Source of the DNA: a virus
Strand: one strand, 5' to 3'
Length of the DNA: 29,517 nucleotides
IMG/VR virus record: IMGVR_UViG_3300020164_000234
Span: 1 to 29,517 of that record
Shown: piece after piece, positions 16,402-29,308 of the stretch
Position numbering within the stretch: position 1 is the first letter of the stretch
Layout: each line of letters begins with the position of its first letter
Notes under the pieces: generated by a model
What the model was told of the DNA's origin: nothing
What the model saw: only the letters and a program-made list of their open reading frames with translations
Databases searched by the model: none
Program-made: the position numbers and the translations under genes

Positions 16402-16813
16402 GAAAGCGGCACTCTATGCCGATGCCGAGCGGCTCTATGTGAATGACCAGCTCACGCTCGAAGCGATTGCCTCAAAGCTTGGGTGCGGTGTGCGAACGCT
16501 CACAAACTGGAAAGCCGAGGGTAACTGGGACAGCAAGCGGCAGGGGTTTATTGAGCTTGAGACCAGTCTGCATGGAGACCTTTACCGGCTGGCCCAGCTG
16601 CTCACCCGTAAGAACCTTTCATCCATCGAGGCAGGTGAGGCCGTCGATGCCCGCGCGATGAGTGTAGCTTTTCGAGCGATTGCCGTGGTGAAGAATACCG
16701 TAGAGTATGAGGATTCGGAGGTAACGCAAAAGCAGAAAGAGCCGAAGCGGGGACTCAGTGAAGAGACCATCCGGCAGATTGAAGAAGAAGTCCTTGGACT
16801 CCGCCGCCAATGA
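16394..16813 (+). CDS. Small terminase subunit (DUF1804/DUF3486-like)
   Basis: 139 residues. An N-terminal helix-turn-helix (LTLEAIASKLGCGVRTLTNWKAEGNWDSKRQ, about residues 20-51) is followed by an oligomerisation-like helical part and a charged tail (QKQKEPKRGLSEETIRQIEEEVLGLRRQ). The W-K...W-D-x-x-R motif after the HTH is typical of small terminases of Mu-like phages. It would recognise phage DNA and stimulate the large subunit. It overlaps the large terminase gene by 4 nt (ATGA). Confidence 0.75.
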   Translation: MAKKAALYADAERLYVNDQLTLEAIASKLGCGVRTLTNWKAEGNWDSKRQGFIELETSLHGDLYRLAQLLTRKNLSSIEAGEAVDARAMSVAFRAIAVVKNTVEYEDSEVTQKQKEPKRGLSEETIRQIEEEVLGLRRQ

Positions 16814-18213
16814 GCACACCGTCACTCAGCAAATACTTTCTGCCGTATCAGATTGCATGGCTTCTTGATGACAGCCCGTTCAAGATATGGGAGAAAACCC
16901 GCCGTGGAGGTATGACCTACGTCCAGAGCTATGAAGATGTGCGCGATGCCGTTGCCGGCCGTTGGGATGTTTGGTTTTCGTCAGCTGATGAAACTGCCGC
17001 CCGTGAGTATATCCTCTACTGTGAAAAGTGGGCGAAGCTGTTCAAAATGGCCGCAGAGCAGTTCAATGAGTCGGTGTTTGATGATACCGGGAAGCCGATT
17101 GCGGTGTTCAGTATCCGGTTCACGAACGGAAAGCGCATCACGGCACTGAGTTCTTCACCTTCACAGTTCCGGTCAAAAGGCGGCAAAGTTGTCCTGGACG
17201 AATTCGCCTGGCATAAAGATCAAGCCGGAATGTGGGCAGCTGCTGAACCGGTTACTACTTGGGGATTCCCTTTGCGTATCATTTCAACGCATAACGGCAA
17301 AGGGTGTGTGTTTTTCAAGCTTATCGACAAGGCTGCTGAAATCGGCGGTGTTGTGCACAAAACCAGCATTTACGATGCCGTCGAGCAGGGTCTTGTTGAC
17401 AAGATCGTACAGCACAAAACGACCGAGTCCGAACGGACTGCATGGCTGGAAAGCAAACGGAAAAAGGTAGGGCCGACCGTCTGGGCACAGGAATATTGCT
17501 GTGAACCGATCGACGAGAGCACAGCATTCCTTTCGTACAATCTGATTGAGAGCTGCACGGAAAACGGCTTGCTGAAAGGGCTGCATGAGCTTCTGTATCC
17601 TTTTGTGCTGGGAATGGATATTGGCCGGTACCGGAACCTTTCTGTTATCTGGATCGCTGAGCTGATCGAGCGGCGACGGTATACCCGCATCATTGAGCCG
17701 ATGGAGAAGACAGCGTTCCGGACGCAGTATAAAACGCTCTCGACCTTTCTTTCTCATCCGCTTTGTTACCGTGCCTGCATTGATAAAAAAGGGATGGGTG
17801 AACAGATGGCCGAGGATGCCCAGCAGGATTATGGTTCGTACCGTGTCGAGGCTGTCGAGTTCACCAACGCGAGCAAAAACGCGATGGCTGAAGGCATCAA
17901 AACCCAGATGGAAGACCGTGAATTTCTTATCCCGGGTGATGGAAAGCTGGCCGATACCATACGGGAGGATCTGCACAGTGTGCAGCAGGAAGTTTCGCCC
18001 GCCGGCAATATGCGCTTCAACGTCAATGAAAATGAGGAAAACCCGAACAGCCACGCAGATTACTTCTGGGCGGCGGCGCTCTGCAACAATGCAGCTGGGA
18101 ACGACACTCTTGGAGTCCCGCAGGTGACAACGCTTTCCGAAGAGGCAAAACGGCAACGGGCAAGATACTCAGCACACATACGCAAACTTTTATCCGGATA
18201 CAGGAGATCATAA
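16810..18213 (+). CDS. Large terminase subunit (Mu gp28 type)
   Basis: 467 residues, the DNA-packaging motor and headful nuclease. The Walker A-like motif EKTRRGGMT is at about residues 28-36 and the Walker B motif KVVLDE at 126-131, followed by the coupling segment IISTHNGKG near 157-165. The nuclease domain begins VLGMDIGRYRNLSVIWI with the first acidic residue at D270; later acidic motifs include IDKKGMGEQMAED and the terminal HADYFWAAALC. The deviant Walker A is normal for Mu gp28-type terminases. The order small terminase, large terminase, portal is canonical. Confidence 0.85.
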   Translation: MSTPSLSKYFLPYQIAWLLDDSPFKIWEKTRRGGMTYVQSYEDVRDAVAGRWDVWFSSADETAAREYILYCEKWAKLFKMAAEQFNESVFDDTGKPIAVFSIRFTNGKRITALSSSPSQFRSKGGKVVLDEFAWHKDQAGMWAAAEPVTTWGFPLRIISTHNGKGCVFFKLIDKAAEIGGVVHKTSIYDAVEQGLVDKIVQHKTTESERTAWLESKRKKVGPTVWAQEYCCEPIDESTAFLSYNLIESCTENGLLKGLHELLYPFVLGMDIGRYRNLSVIWIAELIERRRYTRIIEPMEKTAFRTQYKTLSTFLSHPLCYRACIDKKGMGEQMAEDAQQDYGSYRVEAVEFTNASKNAMAEGIKTQMEDREFLIPGDGKLADTIREDLHSVQQEVSPAGNMRFNVNENEENPNSHADYFWAAALCNNAAGNDTLGVPQVTTLSEEAKRQRARYSAHIRKLLSGYRRS

Positions 18214-19595
18214 TGCTACTCGATGCAAAGGGACGCAAAATAACCAGCAAGGCGCAGCGCTTTATTGAGGTGGCCACTCGCCAGACGGCGAACGGTGAAT
18301 TCATTGGTTCCATCAACCGGCTGCCGAATCCAAGTGTGATTCTTGCCTCACAGTTCGATACGCTCAACGTGTTCGACAAGGTGGCGGAGCAGATCGACAT
18401 TGCCGCCGCCATCAACGATTACCGCGCAGGTGTGGCCAGCATGGAGTTCAACGTGCAGAGCAACCTCGACAAAAGCAAACGCGCTCAATTCTTCCTGGAC
18501 TACCTCGACAGCATTGACCTGCCCGACATTATCGAGCAGGCGCTTGAAGCCCGTGATTACGGCTATGCGGTGCTGGAAATTACCCGATGGAAAGTGTTTC
18601 AGGGGAAAACGGTACCGGCTGTGCTTGAAAGCAAGCCGCAGCGGTGGTTTGGGTATGATCTGCTTGGGAATCTCCGGTTCTATACCAAGGAGCAGCCGGG
18701 CGAAGGTGCGGACGTGCAAGCCACATGGCCGAACAAGTTCGTCAATCCTCGCCACCGGGCGAGGTATGCCAATCCATACGGGAAAGGGCTTCTCGACCTG
18801 GCTTACTGGCATGCGGTCGGGCTGAATGGTAATTTCGAGTTCATGATGACCTTCCTTGAAGAGGATGGCCGCGACAAGTGGGTCGTCCGCCATCCGCGCA
18901 ATGCCACCAGTGAGGAGATCAATAACGCGCTCAATATGGCTTTTGAGTTGCGCAATAACGGTGTTGCTGCTATTCCGGAGGGCAATGAGTTCGATAAAAA
19001 GGACGTGACCGGCCGGGCAAGCAGCAGTGATGCGTATACCAAGGCCGATGAGCTGCTCAGCCGTAAAATTCTCAAGCTTTGGTACGGTACTGACCTGATG
19101 ATGCAGGTTGAGGGAAAAGGAGGCTATTCGAGCAGCCAGAGCGGGATCCAGCTGCGGGGAGAAGCGCTCAGCAGCGGCAAGCGGATTGTGCAGCAGGTTA
19201 TTCATGAGTTGTTCCGTATCGTCGAGGAGCTGAACAGCCTGCCCGGAAGTGACGAGGAGACCATTACCTTTACCCTCAAGCACGAGGAAGAGATCAGCAA
19301 GGAAGAGGCGGAAAGGGATAATGTGTACGCCTCGATGCCCGGGTTTGTGCCGACACAGAAGTTCTTCCTGAACCGTGGCTTTCAGGAGGATGAGTTTGTG
19401 TTTACTGATCCGGCTTCCCTCGTTCCCTCGGTACAGCCTTCGGCTTACTCGGGAACCAAAATGCCTGGTGAGCAGGGGCAGGCGGCAAACTCGGGAACCA
19501 AACAGGCTGGGGAGCAGATGCAGCAAGCAACCTTCGGCGCTGATCCGCCGGTTGACTTGCTCAAAGCGTACGATCTGTTAAAAAAAAAGCCCTGA
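18213..19595 (+). CDS. Portal protein (DUF935, Mu gp29 type), zero-frame product
   Basis: 460 residues. DUF935 features include the N-terminal SVILASQFDTLNVFDKVAEQIDIAAAINDYRAGV, the ALEARDYGYAVLEITRW segment, and KADELLSRKILKLWYGTDLMMQVEGKGGYSSSQ. The portal ring is the DNA channel and head-tail joint. Residues 405-440 (VQPSAYSGTKMPGEQGQAANSGTKQAGEQMQQ) are a low-complexity linker containing a translated repeat element B. The protein ends ...LLKAYDLLKKKP right after a nine-A run. It is shorter than Mu gp29 because the last part of the domain seems to continue in the -1 frame. The start overlaps the terminase stop as TAATG. Confidence 0.8.
   Translation: MLLDAKGRKITSKAQRFIEVATRQTANGEFIGSINRLPNPSVILASQFDTLNVFDKVAEQIDIAAAINDYRAGVASMEFNVQSNLDKSKRAQFFLDYLDSIDLPDIIEQALEARDYGYAVLEITRWKVFQGKTVPAVLESKPQRWFGYDLLGNLRFYTKEQPGEGADVQATWPNKFVNPRHRARYANPYGKGLLDLAYWHAVGLNGNFEFMMTFLEEDGRDKWVVRHPRNATSEEINNALNMAFELRNNGVAAIPEGNEFDKKDVTGRASSSDAYTKADELLSRKILKLWYGTDLMMQVEGKGGYSSSQSGIQLRGEALSSGKRIVQQVIHELFRIVEELNSLPGSDEETITFTLKHEEEISKEEAERDNVYASMPGFVPTQKFFLNRGFQEDEFVFTDPASLVPSVQPSAYSGTKMPGEQGQAANSGTKQAGEQMQQATFGADPPVDLLKAYDLLKKKP
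19425..19457 (+). repeat. Element B inside the portal coding sequence
   Basis: CTCGGTACAGCCTTCGGC... matches the B frame TCGGTAC-stem-loop-stem-TACTCAGCAACC with stem AGCC-TTC-GGCT. It is in frame and encodes PSVQPSAYSGT. A partial second copy of its end (ACTCGGGAACCAAA) occurs about 42 bp further on. Confidence 0.6.
19580..19589 (+). promoter_or_regulatory. Candidate -1 frameshift slippery site A9-G between portal and head protein
   Basis: Nine A residues followed by G. In the portal frame the codons are TTA AAA AAA AAG CCC TGA, which contains A-AAA-AAG, the dnaX-type heptamer, in register. The -1 frame has a TGA at 19553-19555, so any shift must occur between 19556 and the portal stop at 19595, exactly where this run lies. 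A homopolymer sequencing error is the alternative. Confidence 0.6.
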
Positions 19596-20428
19596 CCGGC
19601 ACTGCTGATGCTATTCTTGACCCTCAGCCTGATGATGAGTTTATCAATGCTTTTTCACAAGCTTTAACCTTTGAACTGAACAATGCCTGGAGTGATGGAC
19701 GCGCAGATACTGACCGGCTTGCAAAGGAGGCTGATCCGGAGTTCGATGCGGCAACATTTGCCACAGAGATCACTATTCCGACAATCGGCGCAGGCGACCA
19801 GAGCGCTGCGGCTTTCCATGCGTTCAAGGGCTTTGCGGCCGCGCTTATTGAAGACCAGCGGGTCAGTGATGCGCTCAAGCAAAGCCTTACCGAGGCGTTG
19901 GCAAACGGCAGCGGCTTTGATGAGTGGAAAGGGTCAATCAATGAGGTGTTCGATAAACTTGGCGTCACACAGCTCTCTTCGTACCGGCTTGAAACGATCT
20001 ACCGTACTGAAACCTCTCTCTCTTTTGCCGGTGCTCAGTTTGCGCGATTGCAGGAAGTCAAGACGAATTTTCCGTTCTGGGAGTACTCGGCAATCCTTGA
20101 CCAGCGCACGCGGCCAAGCCACAGAGCGCTTGACGGGAGTATCTTTTTATCAACCGACAATCAGTTCTGGCCGCCTCTCGGGTTCCGGTGCCGATGCACG
20201 GTTATTCTTATCAGCAGGGCGCAGGCTTTGCGGAGAGGGATTACCAAGCCGGACACCATTACGCCGGAGATGCGCGGCAACCTGCAGAATGCCGAGTTCA
20301 TCGGCGACAAGATTGTCACCTACAATAACTGGCTTAAAGAGCAGCAGAGAGGCATGAATGCCGCTGCACTGCAGCTTCTTCAACAGGCCTTTGAAAACCT
20401 TTTAAATGACCTTCAAAATGCAGAGTGA
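19589..20428 (+). CDS. Mu F / SPP1 gp7-type head morphogenesis domain, probably a -1 frameshift extension of the portal
   Basis: An open frame of 279 codons running from the slippery site. The first part (ALTGTADAILDPQ...FSQALTFELNNAWSDGRAD) looks like the end of DUF935. The rest is the Mu F/SPP1 gp7 minor head domain with YRTETSLSFAGAQFARL and the cysteine-containing end LDGSIF...FWPPLGFRCRCTV. No ATG, GTG or TTG occurs in frame for the first 103 codons; the first is a TTG at 19898 inside the conserved domain. Expression through frameshifting would give a portal-head fusion of about 738 residues. Such proteins enter the prohead near the portal. Confidence 0.65.
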   Translation, partial: ALTGTADAILDPQPDDEFINAFSQALTFELNNAWSDGRADTDRLAKEADPEFDAATFATEITIPTIGAGDQSAAAFHAFKGFAAALIEDQRVSDALKQSLTEALANGSGFDEWKGSINEVFDKLGVTQLSSYRLETIYRTETSLSFAGAQFARLQEVKTNFPFWEYSAILDQRTRPSHRALDGSIFLSTDNQFWPPLGFRCRCTVILISRAQALRRGITKPDTITPEMRGNLQNAEFIGDKIVTYNNWLKEQQRGMNAAALQLLQQAFENLLNDLQNAE

Positions 20429-27142: not shown

Positions 27143-29308
27143 TTATTTGCGTAGTCCAAGTCTCTCTCTGTACTGCTCCTCTGCCTCTCTCTGCTTCAAT
27201 ACCTGCTCCTCTTGATATTTACGAGCCCTGCTGAGGAGGCTGTTTTCGCAGTCCTCCTGCGGATCCTCATCACAGCCGACAGCTTTTTTAGCTGGCTTTA
27301 ACTGCTTCGGAGCGACAACGGCAGGGAGCGCTCTCTGCTCTTCTGCATCCCTCGCGGCATAGAACTCTTTCGCCTGGCGAATTGCTACTTGTTTTATCGC
27401 TCCTTTAATTCCTAATACTTCACGAAGTCTTTTCCGGTCTTCATCCGTGCCGAGAGTGTCGGCCATCGGGTGAATCCCTGCAAAACCATTAGCATTAGCC
27501 GCAAAGAGGAAGTTTTCACCGGATTCATCGTACACATATACCGTTTCAAGTGCTGCAAAGTCAAACCGGACAATGAATTCTTTGGCGTTTGAACAACCAC
27601 CAAGCTCTTCGTGCCAGTAGTATCGGCCAAACATTCTGATTCCGTTGTTCCCGCTCTTTTTCTTGGTTTGTGCAAGCATCAGAAACCGAAGTTCGTCGGG
27701 AGTAATGATCCTTTTTTCAAAGTCTGCTTTCGACCTGACAGCCTCGATCGACTCCATATAAACCTCTTTCGGTGTCCGGCCTTTAAGGGATGAATCTTTT
27801 GCTTTTGGTGTTACGGCATATTTGTTGATGAGCCAGTCAACCAGTGCCATATTGACGTCGTTGATGGTATCAACTGCTCCTTTGTGCCTGTTGTTATGCT
27901 GTGAGTCTTGTAGTTTTTCATCGCGATTCAGGCGAGGGACTTTGTTCTCGATAGAGTTCCCTCTGTACCCGGGACGTCGCTGTTCAAAGTCGCTCAATGT
28001 CCCGAAAAATCTTTCAATCGGCTTGCTCTGTCCGTGGTATGGGAGGGCGTGTTTTGTTCCTATAAACCCGTAAGGTTTAAGCCTTTCGAACAATCCCGGC
28101 AGAGCTTTCCATCCTTTTGCTCTTGTGAAATACTTTGCTTTGAATGCTCTGCCATTGTCGAGGTAAAAGTGACGAGGGACAAAGCCGAGCGTTACAATCG
28201 CCCGATAATAGGCCATCGCGATGATCTGCGTATTCTCTGACGTTCCAATTTCCCAACCGAGCGGCATTCCTGATTTGAAGTCTGTTACAACAACAATGGT
28301 TGGGCGGAATGGTTTTCCTGTGTAAGGGTTGATAACATCAAAATTGCAGGTGTGGCCATCGGCAACAAGGATGTCGCCGACTTCAATACGGCTGTAGTCT
28401 CGACTGATATACGGGAGGCATTTGTCGTTGTATGCTTTTTCCCCTTCTCTGGTTATAGTTGCCATATCGAAATTATCACGAACAAAATCATCGAGGTAGC
28501 GCATGTATGTTGAATAACTTGCATTCGGTTCAAGCCCAATCCGTTTCAGCTCGTTTTCCATGTCGATGTATGCCTGCTGTTTTGTCTTTCTGGAGTCAAA
28601 GTAAGCCCTCTCGAGGATCTCCGATTCCGTCCGAGTAACACTCCGCTTCCCTCTGCTTTTTCCGTACCCGGGAGCCAGTGCAAACGTGTCTCCTTCTGCC
28701 TCATCAAGCTTCTTTTTCCAGTTGTCCAGAGTTTGGTAGGTGAGGTGCTTGATTTCATCCCGCACATCGTCAAACTCAAGCATCAATCCTTCATTGTACC
28801 GGCGGCAGAATTCTTCCTTTTGATCGACTAAACAGCCATATCTTTTTCCGGAAATAAAGCGCAGATATTCACTCAAAACTTGGTACCTGCGAAGCGCCTT
28901 GTCACGGTTCAAAAAACTTATTGCACCACGCTTCCGAAACGCCTCGTCACGGGCTGCCAACTCCATCGCTGTTTTCGGTTTTTCACCGGTAATCAGCTTC
29001 CGATATTGTTCGATGCCATCCGGAGGCAACTCGGTAAAATGTATCTGGTAAGGACGCCTTCCGTCCTGGTCAATCTGACGGCAGTTTGTGACGTATTTTC
29101 CGTTCAGGCAGTAACGTTTTACCTTCCTTTCATGTTGTCCCGATATTTGGGCAAACTGTTTTACTGATAACCATCCACTTTGATCTCGTAACTCATTTAT
29201 TTCATTATCACTTAGGCTGATCGGGACAATATTTATTTCTTGTCCCGACTTTTGTCCCGATCTTGTCCCGACTTTTTCAGTTTGGGAGATGGTGAAAATT
29301 TTACTCAT
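27143..29308 (-). CDS. muA: MuA-type DDE transposase
   Basis: 721 residues. It has an N-terminal Mu-type helix-turn-helix (WLSVKQFAQISGQHERKVKRYC, about residues 46-67), further DNA-binding segments, then the catalytic core. The probable DDE triad is D317 (VADGH), D384 (FYLDNG) and E432 (PIERFFG); the first spacing of 67 residues equals that of MuA D269/D336. The C-terminal Mu-transposase domain contains RMFGRYYWHEELGG and the final charged helix (SRARKYQEEQVLKQREAEEQYRERLGLRK) may correspond to the MuB/ClpX-interacting tail. It binds the phage ends and carries out strand transfer. Its start overlaps the previous stop by 4 nt (ATGA). Residues 14-25 are encoded by the TTGTCCCGA boxes. Confidence 0.95.
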   Translation of the reverse strand: MSKIFTISQTEKVGTRSGQKSGQEINIVPISLSDNEINELRDQSGWLSVKQFAQISGQHERKVKRYCLNGKYVTNCRQIDQDGRRPYQIHFTELPPDGIEQYRKLITGEKPKTAMELAARDEAFRKRGAISFLNRDKALRRYQVLSEYLRFISGKRYGCLVDQKEEFCRRYNEGLMLEFDDVRDEIKHLTYQTLDNWKKKLDEAEGDTFALAPGYGKSRGKRSVTRTESEILERAYFDSRKTKQQAYIDMENELKRIGLEPNASYSTYMRYLDDFVRDNFDMATITREGEKAYNDKCLPYISRDYSRIEVGDILVADGHTCNFDVINPYTGKPFRPTIVVVTDFKSGMPLGWEIGTSENTQIIAMAYYRAIVTLGFVPRHFYLDNGRAFKAKYFTRAKGWKALPGLFERLKPYGFIGTKHALPYHGQSKPIERFFGTLSDFEQRRPGYRGNSIENKVPRLNRDEKLQDSQHNNRHKGAVDTINDVNMALVDWLINKYAVTPKAKDSSLKGRTPKEVYMESIEAVRSKADFEKRIITPDELRFLMLAQTKKKSGNNGIRMFGRYYWHEELGGCSNAKEFIVRFDFAALETVYVYDESGENFLFAANANGFAGIHPMADTLGTDEDRKRLREVLGIKGAIKQVAIRQAKEFYAARDAEEQRALPAVVAPKQLKPAKKAVGCDEDPQEDCENSLLSRARKYQEEQVLKQREAEEQYRERLGLRK
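29135..29271. promoter_or_regulatory. Cluster of TTGTCCCGA boxes in the 5' end of the transposase gene
   Basis: Nine-base box TTGTCCCGA occurs at 29135-29143, 29240-29248, 29252-29260 and 29263-29271, with an inverted copy at 29221-29229. The three right-hand copies are 12 and 11 bp apart. It could be an operator or a transposition enhancer like Mu's internal activating sequence, or a coding-repeat effect. Confidence 0.45.

Follow-up and report, generated by a model that had tools for sequence, protein, structure and literature searches.

A conserved poly-A run as a candidate -1 recoding site between portal and MuF head frames in Mu-like viruses of green sulfur bacteria

Introduction

Runs of A are known as recoding sites from the dnaX genes of bacteria: transcriptional slippage takes place on nine A's in Thermus thermophilus, and ribosomal frameshifting on A_AAA_AAG in Escherichia coli. 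For the dnaX of Chlorobi, transcriptional realignment on poly-A has been proposed (PMC3711429). Among the structural genes of phages, frameshifts have been described in lambda G/GT, T3 10A/10B, SPP1 gp17.1/gp17.1* and Listeria phage PSA (PMC5009743, PMC6316719). SPP1 gp7, a member of the MuF family, binds the portal in 1-2 copies (PMC5576092, PMC6316719), and simple binding does not readily explain how just one or a few MuF/gp7 molecules come to sit on a ring of many portal subunits. Single-gene fusions of portal and MuF are found in Microbacterium phage clusters EA3, EA5, EA8 and EB (PMC7302621), and our phrog matches include a family of such one-chain fusions, phrog_2662. No report of frameshifting or slippage in a portal gene was found in the open-access literature, which is weak evidence of absence.

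Here we analyse a stretch of 29,517 nucleotides, the full length of IMG/VR virus record IMGVR_UViG_3300020164_000234 (the window), in which a portal gene and a head gene lacking its own start meet at a run of nine A's. We consider this run very probably a programmed -1 recoding site, from which both a plain portal protein and a portal-MuF fusion are predicted.

The portal-head junction

The window is a Mu-like prophage: near its right end (27143-29308) a Mu-type transposase is encoded on the minus strand, and its left end (1-1614) holds a multi-PAS-domain gene that is probably host flank. The features that bear on the junction are as follows.

16810-18213, plus strand: terminase large subunit (PF17289/PF03237), directly upstream of the portal gene and used as the query for finding relatives.
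18213-19595, plus strand: Mu-type (gp29-like) portal, 460 aa, frame 0 (PF06074 Portal_Mu, E 2e-49; phrog_113, E 9e-48).
19580-19589, plus strand: candidate A9-G recoding site, with A_AAA_AAG in the portal register (TTA AAA AAA AAG).
19593-19595, plus strand: 0-frame stop TGA ending the unshifted portal, the second codon past the last Lys codon of the run.
19580-20428, plus strand: head frame, -1, without its own start; a helical segment of about 50 residues, then a MuF/gp7/gp30 minor head domain (PF04233, phrog_220).

The PF06074 match of the profile search covers the portal core (residues 52-385), and the protein ends in LLKKKP just past the run. The run has nine A's, no more and no fewer, at 19580-19588, and the next base, 19589, is G. 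The junction reads GAT CTG TTA AAA AAA AAG CCC TGA in the portal frame, with 3 nt between the A_AAA_AAG heptamer and the stop, and GTT AAA AAA AAA GCC CTG ACC in the head frame. The latter is open from 19556 to 20428 (290 codons); numbered from 19556, its residues 107-217 match PF04233 Phage_Mu_F (E 1.3e-20), and it also matches phrog_220, a minor head protein. The MuF gene directly adjoins the portal gene, as expected of the MuF/SPP1 gp7 family; the Portal_Mu and Phage_Mu_F domains lie in different frames, with the stop at 19593, rather than in a single ORF. In the head frame no ATG, GTG or TTG after the run precedes TTG 19898, which lies 103 codons past it, and the virtual -1 fusion of portal and head amounts to 738 residues. 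A preliminary description of the locus had anticipated this geometry correctly: the portal end at 19595, the head frame at 19556-20428, the run at 19580-19589 with A-AAA-AAG in register, the 103 codons past the run devoid of ATG, GTG and TTG, and a fusion of about 738 residues alongside the 460-residue portal.

By count alone the A-run is just mildly unusual and makes no strong statistic: TAAAAAAAAAG has one copy in the window, against an average of 0.08 in shuffled sequences, 8 of 100 of which contained one. What gives the run weight is where it lies and how well it is conserved.

Conservation among related phages

The relatives that share this arrangement number 12 (L011/L001, L009, L010, L020, L022, L023, L057 and L066-L070) and come from viral contigs and Chlorobia genomes, several of the loci being metagenome-assembled; together with the window they make up a family of Mu-like viruses whose hosts are green sulfur bacteria (Chlorobia). 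An initial scan of genome contigs with the head protein gave no match, and terminase alignment then succeeded, while phage records gave no blastn match to the packaging region. L009 and L010 were located by terminase search, two more terminase scans yielded L020 and L022 (Chlorobiaceae genomes) as well as L023 and L057 (viral contigs), with nine A's each, and a portal-alignment search of 98 Chlorobia genomes added L066, L067, L068, L069 and L070. The first relative, L001/L011, is identical to the window in run, stop and frame relation, its head gene sharing 82% amino acid identity and its portal (in L011) 87%; the portals of most other members are 32-38% identical to that of the window. Terminase identity to the window is 70-83% in L001, L009 and L010, and the portals of the latter two are 34-36% identical to the window portal, their junctions reading GCG CTA AAA AAA AAG CCC TGA (L009) and ACG CTA AAA AAA AAG CCC TGA (L010). 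The L070/L071 portal (G033) is split by an in-frame TAG, attributable to decay or assembly error, with the A9 junction and the MuF frame intact.

A DNA-pattern search of 198 Bacteroidota gave five matches, namely three known members and two within the chance level of the reversed control. One of these two, in L108 (G117:C66 around 20144), a Bacteroidota genome that did not belong to the Chlorobia set searched, is a 30-nt CRISPR-array spacer, AAAAAAAAAGCACTGACATCAACGCCGAGT, which encodes KKKALTSTPS and resembles the phage junction; the likeness may be coincidence.

Nine A's are present in 12 of the 13 phages, the window counted, and ten in the remaining one (L069). All 13 have the head frame at -1 and the 0-frame stop at the second codon past the run's last Lys codon, and 12 share the string T/C-TA-AAA-AAA-AAG. 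In a DNA alignment of eight phages the longest invariant block is T-A9-G, and the head-frame codon between the run and CTGAC varies among GCC, GCA, GCG and GTA. With its ten A's, L069 reads ACA AAA AAA AAA GCC TGA in the portal frame and AAA AAA AAA AGC CTG in the head frame; its heptamer is A_AAA_AAA instead of A_AAA_AAG, and the -1 relation is retained. In the portal tree those A-run members whose portals are complete, 12 in number, group as a single clade with 100/100 support; all members belong to one clade, and the 13 are hence not 13 independent events. Conservation of the run in related prophages had been suggested in advance as a check, and the run proves to be kept, together with the -1 relation, down to the lowest portal identity within the clade, 32%.

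The sequence itself establishes the two ORFs, the missing start and the switch of frame at the run, and it shows run, stop and frame relation to be kept in 13 phages. Overlapping ORFs with a slippery site in the overlap, all of them conserved, are the general marks of a recoding site, and this candidate junction bears them in 13 of 13 members. Outside relatives, drawn from 394 Bacteroidota genomes as well as from viral contigs and phage records, with a part of the junctions viewed by eye, show no run of at least eight A's at the junction, and in most of them the head gene starts at or near the portal stop. In one outside locus, L039:4109-6334, portal and MuF are encoded by one uninterrupted ORF of 741 aa with both Pfam domains.

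A homopolymer at a change of frame is also the classic signature of a sequencing error, and the loss or gain of one base in the run had been named early on as the alternative; the locus would then hold one continuous ORF in truth, or else a gene broken in a decaying prophage. Against this, the run and the frame relation are alike in 13 separate assemblies spanning 32-92% portal identity, selection at the amino acid level acts on both frames, and the 0-frame stop is kept in every member, which is unexpected for one continuous gene. An error or decay of this kind is, in our judgement, scarcely credible.

The beginning of the head coding sequence

From the first codons past the run, codon position 3 is the most variable, as it is in the remaining head gene (the window against L011, and five close pairs), and KKK(A/V/S)LT is conserved across the join without a conserved start codon. 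The AlphaFold model of the head frame has an ordered helix at residues 19-51 (pLDDT about 75-80, against 69 for the whole model), and this modelled helix makes it unlikely that the segment after the run is an untranslated leader. A Foldseek comparison of the head-frame model with the PDB yielded no match below E 0.6. Profile comparison places separate portals against residues 13-472 of the virtual fusion, and separate heads against residues 509-688. The roughly 50 residues past the run were also compared with the usual portal C-terminal domain; the two are similar by eye, but the hhalign probability is 0.3%, and we make no such identification.

Could the head protein be made on its own, either by termination-reinitiation at a CTG that shares bases with the portal stop (CTGA) or from an internal start further downstream? 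Twelve of the 13 members, the window among them, have CTGA, and in L009, L010, L023 and L057 the head frame offers an ATG 32-43 codons past the run. However, TAA replaces TGA in L066, where the same place reads CTAA and the head frame has CTA, not CTG; a CTG start is therefore not general, and with it CTGA reinitiation fails as the start for the family. No Shine-Dalgarno sequence precedes the CTG. The earliest ATG, GTG or TTG shifts between members, from 32 to 230 codons past the run, and in some lies inside or beyond the MuF domain, whereas in-frame conservation begins at the run itself, ahead of any start codon. A separate start would also leave A9 unexplained, and we regard it as improbable. 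Homologues with a normal start for the head gene had been named beforehand as the finding that would speak against frameshifting; the 13 members have no conserved start, and separate genes are found only in outgroup phages.

Five members (L020, L023, L057, L066 and L068) have head frames of 445-450 aa, with a C-terminal extension of about 150 aa and a layout like that of MuF polymorphic toxins. The extension has no Pfam match in the three members scanned, and that of L023 has no PDB sequence match. The head frame of the window ends soon after MuF, without the C-terminal toxin domain by which MuF polymorphic toxins are recognized.

The slipping machinery

What could be the mechanism by which the two frames are joined? 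In the programmed recoding that we propose, most portal mRNA or translation would stay in frame 0 and end at the TGA at 19593, yielding the 460-residue portal. In a fraction, a slipping RNA polymerase would add one A to the A9 run, which we hold to be the probable course, or the ribosome would slip -1 on A_AAA_AAG, to which we assign somewhat less than an even chance. Translation would then continue in the head frame and give the portal-MuF fusion of about 738 residues, which might take its place in the portal ring among unfused subunits, the slip rate setting the number of MuF domains on the ring. A covalent link would thus achieve what SPP1 and similar phages achieve when a few copies of gp7 bind their portal. 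We infer the slippage itself, the ratio of the products, the co-assembly of the fusion and the identity of the slipping machine. As to the join LLKKKALTG, trypsin cuts inside it, and the predicted Asp-N peptide across it is DLLKKKALTGTA.

A ribosomal -1 site requires just A_AAA_AAG, and base 3 of the preceding codon falls outside it. In all 13 members this base, in the codon preceding Lys-Lys-Lys, is A; the codon is a Leu codon in the 12 A9 members and ACA in L069. Usage of Leu codons ending in A is 2-15% in these genes, and the probability of finding them here by chance is about 10^-15.6 when multiplied as independent, a value overstated because the phages are related. Since the codon before the three lysines ends in A throughout despite its rarity, the length of the run beyond the heptamer seems to be under selection. 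Poly-A slippage sites are homopolymers of about nine or more whose length is kept, and the run, A9 in 12 members and A10 in one, corresponds to this description. No upstream Shine-Dalgarno site is shared by the 13 members, pairing with the anti-Shine-Dalgarno being weaker than the gene average in the window, and no consensus RNA structure indicative of a conserved stem-loop emerged from single folds, scans of the 13 members or RNAalifold. The conserved A outside the heptamer, the missing Shine-Dalgarno and the lack of shared structure incline us towards RNA polymerase, whose slippage appears at least as likely as that of the ribosome. The early characterization of the run as dnaX-like needs to be refined: 12 of the 13 members have A_AAA_AAG in register, but the site departs from the E. 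coli type in that neither a conserved Shine-Dalgarno nor a shared stem-loop was found.

A purely ribosomal process would follow the model of E. coli dnaX, tandem tRNA-Lys slipping -1 on A_AAA_AAG and the extra A's being incidental. The heptamer stands in register in every member, as A_AAA_AAG in 12 and as A_AAA_AAA in L069, and the 0-frame stop only 3 nt past it is consistent with such slippage, as are the downstream hairpins of L009 and L069. The absence of an upstream Shine-Dalgarno and of a consensus structure across members argues against it, as does the A at base 3 of the Leu codon, rare and outside the heptamer, in 12 of 12 A9 members. We entertain it only tentatively. Hairpins 5-50 nt past the run are strong in L009 and L069 (z -3.7 and -5.2), weak in a few other members and missing from most, so that a ribosomal contribution to the slippage may exist.

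Host dnaX offers a parallel to the proposed polymerase slippage. All seven Chlorobia genomes checked (L094-L100) carry CAA AAA AAA AAG in dnaX, in the same phase as the phage run, within an A10-G run near the end of frame 0. The -1 frame of dnaX is open for about 190-250 codons in six of the seven, the count for L100 having started upstream of a stop and being uninformative. By analogy, we lean towards viewing the host signal as a precedent for poly-A slippage in the hosts of these phages.

Comparison with known systems

Portal-MuF fusions are known, and so is poly-A recoding; for their combination no report was found in the open-access literature. We would give an even chance to the broader proposition that these phages employ the poly-A signal by which their host makes its two forms of dnaX, via RNA polymerase slippage, to dose MuF domains covalently in the portal ring. 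Such a device, set at the vertex where DNA enters, would govern stoichiometry in a Gag-Pol-like way; in some members the dosed MuF would bear a C-terminal extension, perhaps as cargo. A mixture of portal and portal-MuF fixed by frameshifting would be a directly testable answer to the question of how so few MuF molecules are placed on the ring, and would lend itself naturally to the labelling of individual portal subunits. With the A-run signal shared between the portal genes of the phages and the dnaX of their hosts, Chlorobia in general would seem able to use poly-A slippage for gene expression. In practical terms, gene finders will overlook or truncate the MuF gene in all A-run phages.

The phage junction resembles the dnaX recoding sites in its nine or ten A's followed by G, in the phase of the Lys codons and in the -1 outcome, and differs from them in the gene and the purpose, which here is virion structure; the E. 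coli site has a Shine-Dalgarno and a stem-loop, whereas no conserved ones were found at the phage junction. With phrog_2662, the Microbacterium phages and L039 it shares the joining of MuF to the portal C-terminus in one chain, but these encode the fusion only, in one ORF, while here frame 0 stops first and both products are predicted. Portal and MuF genes are likewise neighbours in SPP1 (gp6, the portal, and gp7) and in Mu (gp29 and gp30, or F), where they are separate genes with their own starts and the proteins bind non-covalently, in contrast to the covalent fusion predicted here. The frameshifts of lambda, T3, SPP1 gp17.1 and PSA similarly set the ratio of short to C-terminally extended virion or assembly proteins; they concern tail chaperones, the capsid or the tail tube, whereas the candidate site in these viruses of green sulfur bacteria lies in the portal.
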